NCBI RefSeq assembly: GCF_000296465.1
Contig: NZ_JH815204.1
Location: 681,681 to 745,680, forward strand
Length of the DNA stretch: 64,000 bases
From: Barnesiella intestinihominis YIT 11860
GTDB taxonomy: Bacteria; Bacteroidota; Bacteroidia; Bacteroidales; Barnesiellaceae
Direction: 5' to 3'
The translations under genes were made by a program, and so were the position numbers. Below, one piece after another: positions 1 to 6,557 of this stretch. A model generated the notes under the pieces. That model saw only the letters and a program-made list of their open reading frames with translations, did not search any database and was not told the origin of the DNA. Each line of letters begins with the position of its first letter. The first letter of the stretch is position 1.

Positions 1-110
1 AAGCGTATCAATGTCGTTTGGTCTACTTCGGCCATGTATTGGATATATGCATTCCCTATTGCCGTGGGGACTTCAAAAATATCCCCGATTTCAATTTTTT
101 TCTTTGTCAT
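1..110 (-). CDS. 5' end of a small protein gene, putative immunity protein to the RHS/GIY-YIG toxin (partial)
   Basis: A minus-strand reading frame starts with ATG at 110 and runs open off the left edge of the window (36 codons visible). The visible protein begins MTKKKIEIGDIFEVPTAIG and continues with NAYIQYMAEVDQTTLIR. The start lies 3 nt after the stop of the RHS toxin gene on the same strand, the usual place of a cognate immunity gene in polymorphic toxin loci. The opening (basic residues, then GDIFEVP) recalls small immunity-like proteins such as the Imm26 group, but the fragment is too short to assign a family. The immunity role is inferred from position; the reading frame itself is clear. 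Confidence 0.6.
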   Translation of the reverse strand, partial: MTKKKIEIGDIFEVPTAIGNAYIQYMAEVDQTTLIR

Positions 111-113
111 AAA

Positions 114-3100
114 CTATAAATTTTTAATATAACTATTTCCTACTTTTATAGCATCTTCGTATATAGGATTTTTACGGGAGATGCTATTGATTTTGTTAAG
201 TAAAGTTCCTCCATCTCTTCGAAATTTGTAATGCTCAATTAATGCCTGCTCTAAAGCTCTTGCATCATATTTGGTTAAATTGGATTTGAATTTTTTGATA
301 GCAAATCTATGAGCATGTTCAGCTCGTCTTCTAAGAAAATTATTTGTCATACCCACATAAATAACATTTTTATTTTCATCTGTAGCAATATATACCGTAT
401 ATTGTCCTAATGGCGGTGATTTTTTTGGAGCTTGCCATATTGGAAGAAATCTTTTATTGGACAGTAATTTTATTCCAGTAATTAAATAAAATAGGTCGTT
501 TGTGGGGGTAATTTGCCCTGAGGCTTGTTGATACCATCTTGCATCTCTAGCAAAAGGATTCCAATTGATGTTTGGTAAAGAAATTCCATTTATAACGTAT
601 TCCCTGCCGTTTGATGAATAAGAACTGGGATTAGAATTTACATAAAAGGTATACCAGCAGCCATTATCGCTATTGTACATGAGTGTTTTGCTTATATCAG
701 CAAATTCATCGTCTGACAAATAATCCCATTCACTCATATCAATATTTCCGTCACCAGATAGAATTGAATCCCAAAATTTTTCAATTTCATCGGGATCGTT
801 TGTCCCCCAGTAATCCATACCAGAGGGGTCGATATAATTCACCGGGTCGTTTCCACAATGGGCATAGGGCGATTCGTGATAAAAATGCTCGGCCAACGGG
901 TCGAAAGAGGTGAACCGATGCATGGCAGGGGAGTAGTGACGACGGCCGTTGTCGTAAGAATCGAAGCCGTGCATCTCTATAAATTCCAGTTCACCATATT
1001 TGTAAGGTTGTTCGTCGGCACGATAGCATTCGTCGTAGGGAAGTCCGTCGGGATAATATTGCATACGTTGATGCACTTTGACGAGCCTGATGGGGGGCAG
1101 GACTATATTTGTCGATGAGCTCAAAGTCTTGACAGGCTTGATGATATTGATTTTGATATTACTGTAAACAGTGCGTACATTTCCCTGATAGTCGGTGGCA
1201 TAGTATCGGAACTCTTTCTCTCGGCAATCGTAGTAGCCGTATCGGTTGTGAATGCGAATGAGAGAATCGCAGGCAAACGGCGAGCCGATATATTCCAGCG
1301 GTCCGTTCCATGCCGACATCGAACTCATTGCCCGTATGGTAAGGTCCATGCTGGCCAATGTCTCTCCGCGAGGAACGATTATCGCCGAATAGGAGGTGGT
1401 ATATTGGGCTTTTATCTTGCGTCCGTCTGCTAAATAGTGGTAGATGATGGTCGACCCGTTTTTGAACTGGACGGTATCGGGCAAGTCGATCGCATTGTAG
1501 CGTATGGTCACGATGTCCCTGTCGAGATCGGCGGTCATATTGCCGTTACTGTCGTAATAGAAATCGTCTCCCGAGTGGTTATAATCGTGATATTCCTTTA
1601 TGTTATAGGCAGACTGGTCGCCCGATATATCGGTAATTCGGGTGACTTGATTGCCGTTATAGTTCCACGAAGTTTCGTCTATCAAATGACCGTTCTCTCC
1701 ACCGTAACGGTACAGCATGGCGATATTTCCCTGTTTGTCGTATGTAAACTCTTCGGTATAGCGTTCTTGTCCGTATTTTCCGGAAGAAGAGTATGCCGAA
1801 ACCAATCTGTCCTGTTGGTCGTAGGCGAACGAATATCCATTGGTGATGGTATCGGTATTGTCGATAGAGGGAGTGAGCCATTTCATCGACGATATTTTAC
1901 CGTTGTAACGCGGAGTTCCATCGCCTGTGTTATAATATAATTTCTGTTCGAAATCCACGTCTTTTATACTCGTGATGTTTCCTTGCAAGTCATATTCATA
2001 CGAGGCATGTGTAGTCCCGTTATTCCGGCTTAACCTAGTTAATCTACCGAGTTCGTCGTATTGGAAATAACGGGTGTTGACCAAAGTGTCGTTGAGCGTA
2101 TATCTGGTGCGGGTAAGACGGCTGTCGTGGTCGTAAGTATGTTCTGCCGATTCGGTGACAGATCCGCCGTCGGCTGTTTGGTATTCGGCAAAAGATTTCA
2201 ATACGGTTCCCGAGAGGTCGCATTTTTGGTAGGCATAGCTGTATTCACCGTTTATGTTGCGGGTACAAGATGCAATGTGATTGCCGAACCGGTCGTAATA
2301 CAATGCTTCTATTTCGAATTGGTCATCGTTGGTCAGTGAATACACTCTTTTCCCGGTAAGGTATGTTTTTGCGGCGGCTTGCTGCGAGTATCCTGTTTTT
2401 CTCTTGTAGGTCAATCGATTGGCGACAGAGGTATCCAAAATGTCGAGAAAGCCATAGTCGTCGTAATAGTAGACCGTGAGTAATTGGACTTCATCTTGGG
2501 AGAATATGTTGTTGGTATAGCCGATTCCTCGCCATGAACCGGGCGATAGGTCGGGGCTTTCGTTGAACAATATGTTTCGGCATTGAAGCGTGGCTTGTTG
2601 GAAATCTATGTTTCCCGACGATATTATATAGGAGAAAAGCAAACGGTCGAAACAGTCGTATTTATAGACGGTCCATTGGTCTTTTTTCCGTTGATTCCCG
2701 TTTTGCGACATCGCCAACCGGTCTCCTTTGTCGTAAATCATTTTTATTTCGTCTATTCCGGGAAGCTTCTTATTCGTACAGTTTCCCCGTGCATCATACG
2801 TGTAGATGTAGCCATATAGGGCTAAAACACTATGGGTGCGATTCCAACTGCCGTCTGTATTAAGAGCATCGGAAGCATTGGGGGGCAAAACATAGATTAA
2901 TTGCCCGAGGTCGTCATAGACATAATAGGTATCGCAATTCCCACCCCGGCGTTCCATAACTATTTGTCCAGATTTATCGGTATAGGTGAGAATCTTTTTC
3001 CCATCTTCATCGGTCGCTTCGGTTACGGAGAGTTGTCCTGCCGGATAATATCCAGATCGGTGCAATATATCGTTCGATACGGTGTATTTACCGACTTCGG

Positions 3101-3683
3101 CAGAACGGTTGTTACGGTAAGTCATCGTTGCCGGATGGGAACGCCATTCTGTACCGGCCTTTCTCAAATCGGCGGGTCTGCTTAGCGGTGAACCTTCGTA
3201 GCTCGTTTCTACAAAGGGATTTTCGTCGTCGTAAAAATTCGTGGATAATGAAGCGTAGGTCGAGAATGGTATGTATCTTCCCCTGTTCGTCGACGAAATA
3301 GGAGTAGGCAGCCAGTTTTTATGTTCTCGTCCAGCTGCATCGTATTGGTAATAATCGATCAAATCTTTATGACCGGTAGTCATGCCTAGCCGAACTACTT
3401 GTTCGGGTCTTCCCAATCCGTCGAAATAGGTTATTTTTGTCGCCACCCGAGAGCCCGAGGCGTTGAGATGTATAGATTTACTGTCGACATCTATTGTACC
3501 GGAACCTTGTACCGGAGTGATTTCCAAAATATAATTCCTATCGCTGTCGAAATTAGTAACGAAAGTCGTATCGGGTAGAGGTATGAAGTCGGGATCGAGT
3601 ACTAAGGTATCGAATCCTGTCGCCATTTGCCAGGGAATTATTACGGCAAATAATGAGAGTATGAAATGATGTGTCTTTTTCAT
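114..3683 (-). CDS. RHS-repeat polymorphic toxin with C-terminal GIY-YIG nuclease domain
   Basis: A protein of 1189 residues. The first ~23 residues look like a signal peptide. Next comes a Bacteroidota-type RHS N-region (DUF6443-like, with YFDGLGRPEQ and YQYDAAGRE), then many YD repeats (YDxxGR/N patterns) between about residues 100 and 800, and the RHS-associated core near residues 890-956, ending in NDPVNYIDPSGMD. After the core lies a ~230-residue variable tip. The last ~100 residues are a GIY-YIG domain: YTVYI near 1095, VIYVGMT near 1107, LRRR near 1117, a Glu in ALEQ near 1143 and LLNKIN near 1170. By family knowledge such tips are nucleases carried inside an RHS shell. The gene follows its partner by 11 nt and precedes a likely immunity gene by 3 nt. 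The tip is visibly more AT-rich than the repeats. The target (DNA or RNA, rival cells) is inferred. Confidence 0.88.
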   Translation of the reverse strand: MKKTHHFILSLFAVIIPWQMATGFDTLVLDPDFIPLPDTTFVTNFDSDRNYILEITPVQGSGTIDVDSKSIHLNASGSRVATKITYFDGLGRPEQVVRLGMTTGHKDLIDYYQYDAAGREHKNWLPTPISSTNRGRYIPFSTYASLSTNFYDDENPFVETSYEGSPLSRPADLRKAGTEWRSHPATMTYRNNRSAEVGKYTVSNDILHRSGYYPAGQLSVTEATDEDGKKILTYTDKSGQIVMERRGGNCDTYYVYDDLGQLIYVLPPNASDALNTDGSWNRTHSVLALYGYIYTYDARGNCTNKKLPGIDEIKMIYDKGDRLAMSQNGNQRKKDQWTVYKYDCFDRLLFSYIISSGNIDFQQATLQCRNILFNESPDLSPGSWRGIGYTNNIFSQDEVQLLTVYYYDDYGFLDILDTSVANRLTYKRKTGYSQQAAAKTYLTGKRVYSLTNDDQFEIEALYYDRFGNHIASCTRNINGEYSYAYQKCDLSGTVLKSFAEYQTADGGSVTESAEHTYDHDSRLTRTRYTLNDTLVNTRYFQYDELGRLTRLSRNNGTTHASYEYDLQGNITSIKDVDFEQKLYYNTGDGTPRYNGKISSMKWLTPSIDNTDTITNGYSFAYDQQDRLVSAYSSSGKYGQERYTEEFTYDKQGNIAMLYRYGGENGHLIDETSWNYNGNQVTRITDISGDQSAYNIKEYHDYNHSGDDFYYDSNGNMTADLDRDIVTIRYNAIDLPDTVQFKNGSTIIYHYLADGRKIKAQYTTSYSAIIVPRGETLASMDLTIRAMSSMSAWNGPLEYIGSPFACDSLIRIHNRYGYYDCREKEFRYYATDYQGNVRTVYSNIKINIIKPVKTLSSSTNIVLPPIRLVKVHQRMQYYPDGLPYDECYRADEQPYKYGELEFIEMHGFDSYDNGRRHYSPAMHRFTSFDPLAEHFYHESPYAHCGNDPVNYIDPSGMDYWGTNDPDEIEKFWDSILSGDGNIDMSEWDYLSDDEFADISKTLMYNSDNGCWYTFYVNSNPSSYSSNGREYVINGISLPNINWNPFARDARWYQQASGQITPTNDLFYLITGIKLLSNKRFLPIWQAPKKSPPLGQYTVYIATDENKNVIYVGMTNNFLRRRAEHAHRFAIKKFKSNLTKYDARALEQALIEHYKFRRDGGTLLNKINSISRKNPIYEDAIKVGNSYIKNL

Positions 3684-3694
3684 GGCGATAGTAT

Positions 3695-6436
3695 TTAACG
3701 ATTGCGATAGTTGTATTCATACCGTTTAATGACAGCACCTTGCCATATAATTTCTTGCAGCAGGTTGTCGGAATTATAGACGTAGAGAGTCGTTATTCCG
3801 TTCGGATCGGTCGTTTTCTGCACTCCTATTAGCGGGGCTGCATTTATGGTCGTGATTTGAGCATGGGGTAATTCGTTTCGTAAGCGAGTCTCTATGTCCA
3901 AATACAGTCCGTTTTTATAAATGTTCTCTGGATTACCGGTAATTGCAGTTACTTCGGCAAGCGAGGCATTTACTATTTTAGCGACTGGGTATGAACCGTT
4001 ATCTTTTGTCCAAAGATAGACTGTGCTTACTCCATTTCTACCGGTCTCTGTCGCCAATTTCCCGAACGGATAATAGGTTCGTTGATTTTCTTGGCGAAAA
4101 TCGGGTTGTAGCTTGTTTTTGTAATAGGTTTTTACCGGGTACATTCGGGTGTAATCACCCGGAATAGAGTCGTATATTACTTTCTTGCCAGAGATAAGCG
4201 ATTGTTTGCTTCCGCTTATTTTTGTTTGTTCTGTCGCAATGACTGTCGTCGATAGATTTCGCTGAGAAAGTAGGTCGCATATTGTTTGCGGATATCCGGG
4301 ATATCCGTCGGACGGGTAGTAATAACGAGTATATATAGAATCTCCCAAGCTGGTACAGGAAAGAGTCCCTGTCATATTATAGAGGAGATTGTCGGAATAA
4401 AGATATTCTTCGGAAATTTCGTAAGGTACGGCCTCGTCGTCGTAAAGCCGTGTCGTTTTTCGTCCTAACCGGAACAGACCTGTGTGTATAGCATAATTGT
4501 CGATTGTGAAGTCGGGGTTGGAGTCTGTATCGCCTGAGATCATATTGCCGTTTACCGTGGGAGAGAATATGCCTGCAATTTCTTTATCGTGACAGATTTT
4601 GTTCAGGTGAATGGGAATGTCAGGTTCTGATGAAGGGTAGTATAAGTTCGATCGTACTGATATGCCCATTATGTAAGACAATTCGTCTTCATAATATTCA
4701 TATTCGGTATGCTCTTGAACATTATTCCCTTTATATACTTTCCTGTCGATGATATAAGGCTTGTGATAAAGCATTTGCCAAAATTCACTTACAAATCCGC
4801 TTCCGCCTTGATTGTATTGATAATTGTATTTTTCTACTGTTTTCCCAGCCGGGGTGTATTCGGCAACTTCGTCATACCATATCAAATAGCTATTTCGATA
4901 TAAGATGTTTAGAGAACTTTGGGAGATAATTTCATATATATATCCCGTGTATGACATATCGGATAAATCGTAACGTTTACGTTGTATCCAATAGTCCCAG
5001 TCGGACGGTAATGTAACTAATTTTCCATATCCCGATTCGTTATTCCCATATTTATATGTTTTAGAAACGGTTTGATTATTTTCGGGGGTATATATATTCA
5101 TCTGTTTCAGACGCAGTCCGCATATAACGATGGAATTGTCTATGGGATTGATTGCTTGATTTTTTTCATATTCGAATGAAACGTATCCGCCGGTAGGATA
5201 AACGATTTTTTGTAGTATGTTGGCTTGCATGGCAGATTCGACAGAGCTTCGTGCATTCCCTATATTTTTATTGAGCGCTTTTAACACCGTATTTTGAGGT
5301 ATCATATCGATATAAGTAGCATTCTTTTTCCCAGTATAATAACCATATAAATCTTGGGCATAAACGTTTTCGAAAGTGGTAGGGTTGTATTCGAACGAAT
5401 ATTTTCCTGAGCCCGGTATTGTCACTGACTGTAATAAATTCTTATTGGTATCGGTTATAAATGATATTGTTTTGATCAGTTGGGAATTATTGCCATAGAT
5501 TTTGATGTTTTTCAGAATTTCTTTTCGAGAAGAGTGATATTCGTAGGTAACTTTACCCAATGGAAATGTAATAGATTTCAGAATGCAGTCACCTTGAACA
5601 ACCGGGTTGTTGACGGAAATAATTTCCCAATCGTTGGACGTGGTATAAACTAATTTGTGGGATTGGGTGGGAGTCGATGTTTTAATGATTTCTCTCCCAT
5701 AGTTAAAACTAATTTTTTGACTATCGGTGTATATAATCTCTTTTAAAAGATAAACTTGTTTACATGCAGACGTCTCTATGGTATAATCGCTGTTGCCTCC
5801 GTATATGTAGACAACCCCTTGATCATCGGTAACTTTGAATCCTTCTGCGGTCCCGATAACTTCGATTTTTAAAGGAGTTTGTTTTATTTGTTTAGCAGTG
5901 AAACAATTGTTGTTTTTTTCGATAATAAAACTCGTATTTTGGTCAATTGTATTTATGAAAAATATATCATGTTCTCCGTCGTATCCCCATATAGCTTCTT
6001 CGTCAGTATTTGGTCTAGCCCAATAACTTCGAGGAAATATTGATGTATTATAATTTAATGGTAATAGTTTGCAGTGTTCGTCCACTTTTCCGAATTGCAT
6101 ACGAGTAATTCTTAATCCTGGCAATATGCTCCAACCATATCCTAATATACCGACGGGATCTTCGACTTTTATTCCAGAGGAGTGATAGGATAAGTTAAAG
6201 GAAATTTGGGTATCATCGGGAGTAGGTATAGAAAATAGAGGGATATTGATATTTGTCGTACCGGTCGATTTTGAAACCGGATAAAAATCATATCGGTTAA
6301 GTTGAGCTGATAACGGTGTAATGAAACTTGTATTGTAATCTCCAAATGGCATTGATTGTGCAATGGAACTTTTTGAGAATCCTAATAATGCACAAAATAT
6401 CAGCATGGTATTTCGATAGAATTTCATAGTACGCAA
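3695..6436 (-). CDS. RHS-associated secreted partner protein, SpvB/TcdB-like N-part
   Basis: A protein of 913 residues with a likely signal peptide (about residues 1-26, ending SSIAQ). The segment near residues 85-110 (DPVGILGYGWSILPGLRITR) is the motif found at the start of large RHS/SpvB-type shell proteins. The middle is rich in beta-strand, tyrosine and glycine. The C-terminus has a YD-like unit (DPNGITTLYVYNSDNLLQ) and ends in YEYNYRNR, a conserved ending of first-position RHS partners in Bacteroidota. The gene lies 11 nt before the toxin-bearing RHS gene and is surely co-transcribed with it. It probably forms the N-terminal half of the shell or the export module. It is not a fragment: both genes have their own signal peptide and intact ends. 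No TAnnTTTG box was found in front of it. Confidence 0.75.
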   Translation of the reverse strand: MRTMKFYRNTMLIFCALLGFSKSSIAQSMPFGDYNTSFITPLSAQLNRYDFYPVSKSTGTTNINIPLFSIPTPDDTQISFNLSYHSSGIKVEDPVGILGYGWSILPGLRITRMQFGKVDEHCKLLPLNYNTSIFPRSYWARPNTDEEAIWGYDGEHDIFFINTIDQNTSFIIEKNNNCFTAKQIKQTPLKIEVIGTAEGFKVTDDQGVVYIYGGNSDYTIETSACKQVYLLKEIIYTDSQKISFNYGREIIKTSTPTQSHKLVYTTSNDWEIISVNNPVVQGDCILKSITFPLGKVTYEYHSSRKEILKNIKIYGNNSQLIKTISFITDTNKNLLQSVTIPGSGKYSFEYNPTTFENVYAQDLYGYYTGKKNATYIDMIPQNTVLKALNKNIGNARSSVESAMQANILQKIVYPTGGYVSFEYEKNQAINPIDNSIVICGLRLKQMNIYTPENNQTVSKTYKYGNNESGYGKLVTLPSDWDYWIQRKRYDLSDMSYTGYIYEIISQSSLNILYRNSYLIWYDEVAEYTPAGKTVEKYNYQYNQGGSGFVSEFWQMLYHKPYIIDRKVYKGNNVQEHTEYEYYEDELSYIMGISVRSNLYYPSSEPDIPIHLNKICHDKEIAGIFSPTVNGNMISGDTDSNPDFTIDNYAIHTGLFRLGRKTTRLYDDEAVPYEISEEYLYSDNLLYNMTGTLSCTSLGDSIYTRYYYPSDGYPGYPQTICDLLSQRNLSTTVIATEQTKISGSKQSLISGKKVIYDSIPGDYTRMYPVKTYYKNKLQPDFRQENQRTYYPFGKLATETGRNGVSTVYLWTKDNGSYPVAKIVNASLAEVTAITGNPENIYKNGLYLDIETRLRNELPHAQITTINAAPLIGVQKTTDPNGITTLYVYNSDNLLQEIIWQGAVIKRYEYNYRNR

Positions 6437-6507
6437 ATTGGGGTGTTTCTTTTCTCAAAGAAAGGGAATATTTATTAAAAAACAAAATATTCTCAAAAAA
6501 AATAAAA

Positions 6508-6535
6508 GGCGATTAACTTTAATGAATTAATCGCC
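6508..6535 (-). terminator. Rho-independent terminator after the mlaE-mlaF operon
   Basis: A perfect 9-bp stem (GGCGATTAA/TTAATCGCC) with a 10-nt loop lies 22 nt after the mlaF stop. On the minus strand it is followed by TTTTATTTTTTTT. It also separates this operon from the RHS pair transcribed the same way. Confidence 0.85.
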
Positions 6536-6557
6536 TACAAAAAATATATACTTATAC

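Follow-up and report, generated by a model that had tools for sequence, protein, structure and literature searches.

At the left edge of the window (the whole stretch of 64,000 nucleotides analysed here, G000:C2:681681-745680; its left neighbour on the same contig is L006) lie two RHS genes and the beginning of a small third gene (Table 1). The second RHS protein, RHS-B, starts with MKKTHHFILSLFAVIIPWQMATG, which reads by eye as a Sec signal, followed by DUF6443, the N-terminal domain of Bacteroidota RHS proteins, and by a match to the Pfam RHS_repeat family (E=1.3e-6). The end of its RHS-associated core, NDPVNYIDPSGMD, closes with ...NDPVNYIDPSGM at residue 956 and the variable tip begins right behind it at residue 957. 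A first-pass annotation had described this open reading frame as a conserved core followed by a GIY-YIG tip, and frame, core and tip are present as claimed, with the motifs YTVYI, VIYVGMT, LRRR and ALEQ all in place. By analogy with other Rhs and TcC proteins a self-cleavage site is presumed after DPSGM.

Table 1. Features of the RHS locus in the window (positions of the window; strand in brackets)
Feature	Position	Strand	Evidence
Imm26-like immunity gene, start (36 codons in window)	1..110	(-)	3-nt gap; profile E=3.1e-9
RHS-B, 1189-aa RHS protein with toxin tip	114..3683	(-)	ORF
GIY-YIG/Tox-URI1 nuclease domain	114..401	(-)	PF01541; invariant alignment columns
Variable tip, residues 957-1189	114..815	(-)	GC 33% vs 46% in RHS core; GC3 24% vs 52%
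RHS-associated core end, residues 890-956	816..1016	(-)	TIGR03696 (Rhs_assc_core), E=9.1e-11
DUF6443 domain, residues 72-185	3129..3470	(-)	Pfam PF20041, E=1.8e-26
RHS-A, 913-aa RHS/YD protein	3695..6436	(-)	ORF; weak YD repeat, E=0.088
Island leader/promoter stretch, edge next to mlaF	6437..6557	(-)	congener copy; empty-site comparison

The small gene reported 3 nt downstream of RHS-B is indeed there: the RHS-B stop codon TAG occupies positions 116-114 and the next ATG positions 110-108, a gap of exactly 3 nt. The gene begins MTKKKIEIGDIFEVPTAIGNAYIQYMAEVDQTTLIR and runs on in L006 from 19791 downwards, where about 770 nt of N bases (L006:18912-19681) intervene; legible are its first 36 residues and, past the N bases, a tail of 99 residues that keeps the frame. 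Leftward extension had been proposed as a check, and beyond the N stretch it recovered this Imm26-like tail in frame with the start. Two open reading frames of 393 and 636 aa in L006, both of which cross N bases, were dropped as genes. RHS-A lies directly upstream of RHS-B in the same orientation, with 11 nt between the frames, and its N-terminus is also signal-like; from this spacing RHS-A, RHS-B and the small gene very probably form one operon. To the left of the immunity tail L006 holds, in order, a gene for a 342-aa protein (L006:17574-18602), a DUF4279 gene (Pfam, E=6.9e-11) that runs into a second N stretch, and an orphan Imm26-like start. The 342-aa protein contains two internal repeats, matches neither a Pfam family above cut-off nor anything in the congeners' genomes, and is a candidate for an additional immunity gene. 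At the island's left end the orphan start (L006:15400-15460; MGIQKIEIGDIFEI...) breaks off at a stop after 25 codons and is a recombination scar. The system thus has a wider extent than first described: the finding on RHS-B and the small gene stands, yet the description ended at the window edge, and the system extends leftward by about another 4.4 kb and also takes in the upstream RHS gene, the whole island measuring about 10.9 kb.

The island has been inserted between mlaF and a conserved LRR gene. While cvfB and mlaFE are common to 9/9 genomes of the genus, no more than about 110-165 nt separate the LRR gene from the mlaF behind it in five congeners (L078-L082). Two further congeners carry glycerol kinase or aquaporin-type genes at the site (identified by eye), and one could not be joined there, the two genes being on different contigs. 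The RHS island was absent from the LRR-mlaF site in seven congeners and found in this genome only, and the congeners gave no RHS core match. The comparison of the sites argues that the island is horizontally acquired. These data do not show the site to be an RHS hotspot, the extra genes of the two congeners being ordinary glycerol kinase and aquaporin-type genes. A PADLOC search returned chance-level matches only.

To characterize the tip we compared it with Pfam and structure databases, as had been suggested. The isolated tip matches PF01541 (GIY-YIG) with E=1.8e-6 and 28.6 bits against a Pfam cut-off of 22.6. The published signature of the Tox-URI1 nucleases consists of Y, YxG, R, [RK]xxE and N (PMC3482391), and the tip contains it in full as Y1098, Y1109-x-G1111, R1119, R1142xxE1145 and N1163. 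In the alignment of tip relatives, Y22, G24, R32, E58 and N76 of the domain are among the invariant positions and correspond to Y1109, G1111, R1119, E1145 and N1163 of the protein. The two further marks of Tox-URI1 toxins, a C-terminal place behind a delivery module and modular exchange, were both found. The PDB structures nearest to an AlphaFold2 model of the tip (mean pLDDT 82) are UvrC GIY-YIG domains, with probabilities up to 0.99 and weak E-values of about 0.08; PDB searches by sequence, one with full RHS-B and one with the tip profile, found nothing significant. From its family and the example of TkeA (below), we infer that the RHS-B tip is a predicted metal-dependent DNA nuclease.

We then asked how often the tip and a downstream gene occur together. 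Scanning a collection of 84,980 species genomes gave 17 loci whose carriers are RHS or CDI-type proteins with tips 30-49% identical, from at least five phyla as the records label them (Bacteroidota, Bacillota, Acidobacteriota, Pseudomonadota and Verrucomicrobiota, with others). The recurrence of the tip at this identity over many phyla, with its catalytic residues invariant, places the GIY-YIG assignment beyond chance, and the same tip is borne by a filamentous haemagglutinin-type protein (L040) and by several different RHS proteins. All 17 loci have an adjacent downstream gene, with a gap of -38 to +48 nt in the 15 that were measured. This gene is Imm26-like by profile in 15/17 loci; since most of these 15 went into the profile itself, the result is one of adjacency and not of detection. 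At L049 the downstream gene matches Pfam Imm26 instead (E=2.5e-8), and at L048 it matches the profile weakly but shares 45% identity with the protein of L049. As a control we took the GIY-YIG open reading frames outside the system from an order-wide search of 393 genomes, where none of the 22 stand-alone frames had an Imm26-like neighbour, as against 15 of the 17 tip carriers (Fisher p=5e-9). The sole other RHS protein of the order-wide search (L011) does have such a neighbour. Among plasmid records the immunity gene adjoins the tip in 4/7 tip carriers. The distance matrices of tips and immunity proteins are correlated (r=0.62, p=5e-5), also with phylum controlled (r=0.43, p=0.0015). In these genome comparisons the pairing of tip and immunity gene is independent of lineage, and the recurrent adjacency and correlated distances give good support to the earlier reading of the two genes as a toxin-immunity pair.

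The family of the small protein, which had been given as not known, is Imm26-like by both profile search and profile-profile comparison. Against the profile of the tip relatives' downstream genes (built from 14 proteins) a small search gave E=3.1e-9 for the 36-residue start and E=4.9e-21 for the tail; the best of 100 shuffles of both pieces reached 0.013. NCBIfam and Pfam gave no match for the 36- and 99-residue pieces alone because they are too short, and the family was obtained from the relatives. These downstream genes form one continuous family of about 150 aa; those of L036, L044, L047 and L049 exceed the cut-off of Pfam Imm26 (PF15428), which neither the window fragment nor the complete homologue in the congener G356 (155 aa) reaches. 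Profile-profile comparison of the window-type clade with the Imm26 members over the cut-off gave E=3.7e-13 (probability 97.9), so that homology to accepted Imm26 members and a position next to a Tox-URI1 toxin were both found. A gene much longer than an immunity protein and with another clear function would have spoken against the pair; the visible part of this gene shows nothing of the kind, and its complete congener homologue has 155 aa. By sequence the immunity profile had no significant match in the PDB. A model of an Imm26-like homologue (L041:784-1230, m35df84979fdd; mean pLDDT 94) is mostly beta, with no PDB neighbour at E<=0.001; its Spindlin/Tudor-type neighbours were weak and were set aside.

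From the gene order, domains, catalytic residues, pairing, island insertion and a congener's toxin-less immunity genes (below) established here, we consider it highly probable that the locus is an RHS polymorphic toxin operon, made up of RHS-A, RHS-B with its Tox-URI1/GIY-YIG tip, the Imm26-like gene and further immunity-type genes, in a horizontally acquired island. In such a system RHS-B, perhaps with RHS-A, would be exported through Sec and form the usual RHS shell, with self-cleavage at DPSGM and the tip held inside. The tip would enter a rival cell and cut its DNA as a metal-dependent GIY-YIG nuclease, while in the cytoplasm of the producer the Imm26-like protein would bind and block it, so that the producer and immune relatives survive. 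Tip and immunity gene would travel together as a cassette that is exchanged among RHS or CDI carriers of different kinds, a reading suggested by the GC step at the core/tip junction, the varied carriers and the empty site in congeners.

Delivery is where this scheme is weakest. The sheath components VipB and Bacteroidota TssC of the type VI secretion system (T6SS) were not found in the genome (99.98% complete); the TssC search was positive in 3/119 genomes of the order. According to Pfam neither RHS-A nor RHS-B carries the Por_Secre_tail of the type IX system (T9SS), which has matches at 57 places elsewhere in the genome. By these searches the proteins fall outside T6SS Rhs effectors, defined by a T6SS in the genome, and outside T9SS substrates, defined by a C-terminal sorting domain; both look Sec-exported. 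It is tempting to speculate that RHS-A and RHS-B could make up a two-protein shell like that of TcB-TcC, Sec-exported and delivering the GIY-YIG nuclease between Bacteroidota cells without T6SS, a proposal that we regard as doubtful. If true, such a T6SS-free RHS route would mean contact or soluble delivery, of which we found no description for Bacteroidota; no open-access paper was found that names RHS, DUF6443 and Bacteroidetes together. Should the toxin prove active, the system would allow a direct test of how RHS toxins that Bacteroidota export through Sec arrive at their targets.

Elsewhere in the genome of G356 we observed an orphan immunity island (L054:8429-10175), with 40% GC in flanks of 56-57%. 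In front of its 155-aa immunity homologue stand the final ~25 codons of the same tip (84% identical). Behind it come a copy of the RHS-A leader that extends over the first ~50 nt of the RHS-A gene and then a DUF4279 gene that is 92-97% identical in DNA; the leader stretch of the window is 87% identical over ~180 nt to L054:9468-9649. Read most simply, this island reflects deletion of the toxin genes and retention of the immunity genes; the latter, with the 25 tip codons, would then document in the genome an immunity locus that outlasted its toxin. Two reports (PMC10470768, PMC12247911) describe orphan immunity genes of this sort in Bacteroidales as acquired interbacterial defence. The immunity region of our own island is ~702 nt longer than that of G356, and a second Imm26-like copy is likely there, within the N bases. 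One may ask whether our island, too, is now mainly an immunity reserve, its toxin encoded but undelivered and its tandem immunity genes selected against neighbours with the same tip. A congener that keeps Imm26-like and DUF4279 genes and a tip remnant without any RHS core match would fit this, as would the additional immunity-type genes and orphan Imm26 start of our island and the failure to find a T6SS. We nevertheless hold it to be unlikely: RHS-A, RHS-B and the tip have intact frames and conserved catalytic residues, which is unexpected for a toxin long unused.

Under the preferred reading of an active toxin operon the target could still be RNA and not DNA. One paper (PMC11669294) describes Imm26 as characteristic of immunity against RNase toxins, but known GIY-YIG enzymes are overwhelmingly DNA nucleases, the closest solved folds of the tip are UvrC domains, and the Rhs GIY-YIG effector TkeA degrades DNA (PMC12302616), which together make an RNA target quite improbable. 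That the tip is a GIY-YIG nuclease of the housekeeping type which became joined to an RHS protein by chance would agree with the stand-alone GIY-YIG frames common in the same order, yet it is largely refuted by the pairing, seen in none of those 22 frames and in essentially all 17 tip carriers, and by the recurrence of the tip on different carriers in many phyla, and we give it next to no credence.

The pair is known in kind. For Bacteroidetes, Zhang et al. (2012; PMC3482391) tabulated Imm26 among the partners of Tox-URI1, so the pair type is already catalogued and our locus is another example of it, sharing the nuclease fold, the five signature residues, the RHS carrier, the adjacent Imm26-type gene, the occurrence in Bacteroidetes and the polyimmunity neighbourhood. 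It differs in its immunity subfamily, which lies below the Pfam cut-off and is joined to Imm26 by profile-profile comparison and intermediate relatives; moreover Imm26 is called mostly alpha in that study, whereas the modelled L041 homologue is predicted to be mostly beta. TkeA of Yersinia pseudotuberculosis, a GIY-YIG Rhs DNase neutralised by the downstream-encoded TkiA (PMC12302616), resembles RHS-B by description in being an Rhs protein with a GIY-YIG tip and a partner gene downstream, but it is delivered by a T6SS and our genome has none detectable. Also by description, Bae2/Bai2 of Bacteroides acidifaciens is a similar case of a Bacteroidales Rhs effector with a GIY-YIG-resembling tip and an immunity gene; Bae2 is a PAAR-Rhs T6SS effector with the immunity gene upstream (PMC12694586), whereas here RHS-A and RHS-B are of Sec type and the immunity gene is downstream. 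The TANFOR polymorphic toxins of Bacteroidetes include GIY-YIG tips, and the neighbourhood of their genes is enriched in T9SS-secreted substrates (PMC7073777); in contrast, our carrier is of the RHS/DUF6443 type and Pfam found no TANFOR domain in it. The value of the locus lies in a clear pairing of Tox-URI1 and Imm26, tested against a negative control, within a Bacteroidota genome that has no detectable T6SS. Two aspects deserve to be followed: the immunity subfamily, for which no solved fold was found and which stays under the Pfam cut-off, and a delivery that apparently needs no T6SS.

The genome has a second RHS locus (L007:6174-13348; G000:C1 at about 904-911 kb), which holds a paralogous RHS-A start and a full RHS-B paralogue, 49% identical over the core and ending in a different, HExxGH-containing tip. 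Behind it lie displaced core fragments that are 94-98% identical in DNA to the full copy and joined to another tip, and then tandem small genes, a pattern of tip displacement as expected of polymorphic toxins. The same displaced-cassette pattern was observed in an Acidobacteria MAG (L045:3405-5396), where three tandem Imm26-like genes stand behind one GIY-YIG RHS toxin and the third of them is preceded by a remnant of the tip C-terminus.
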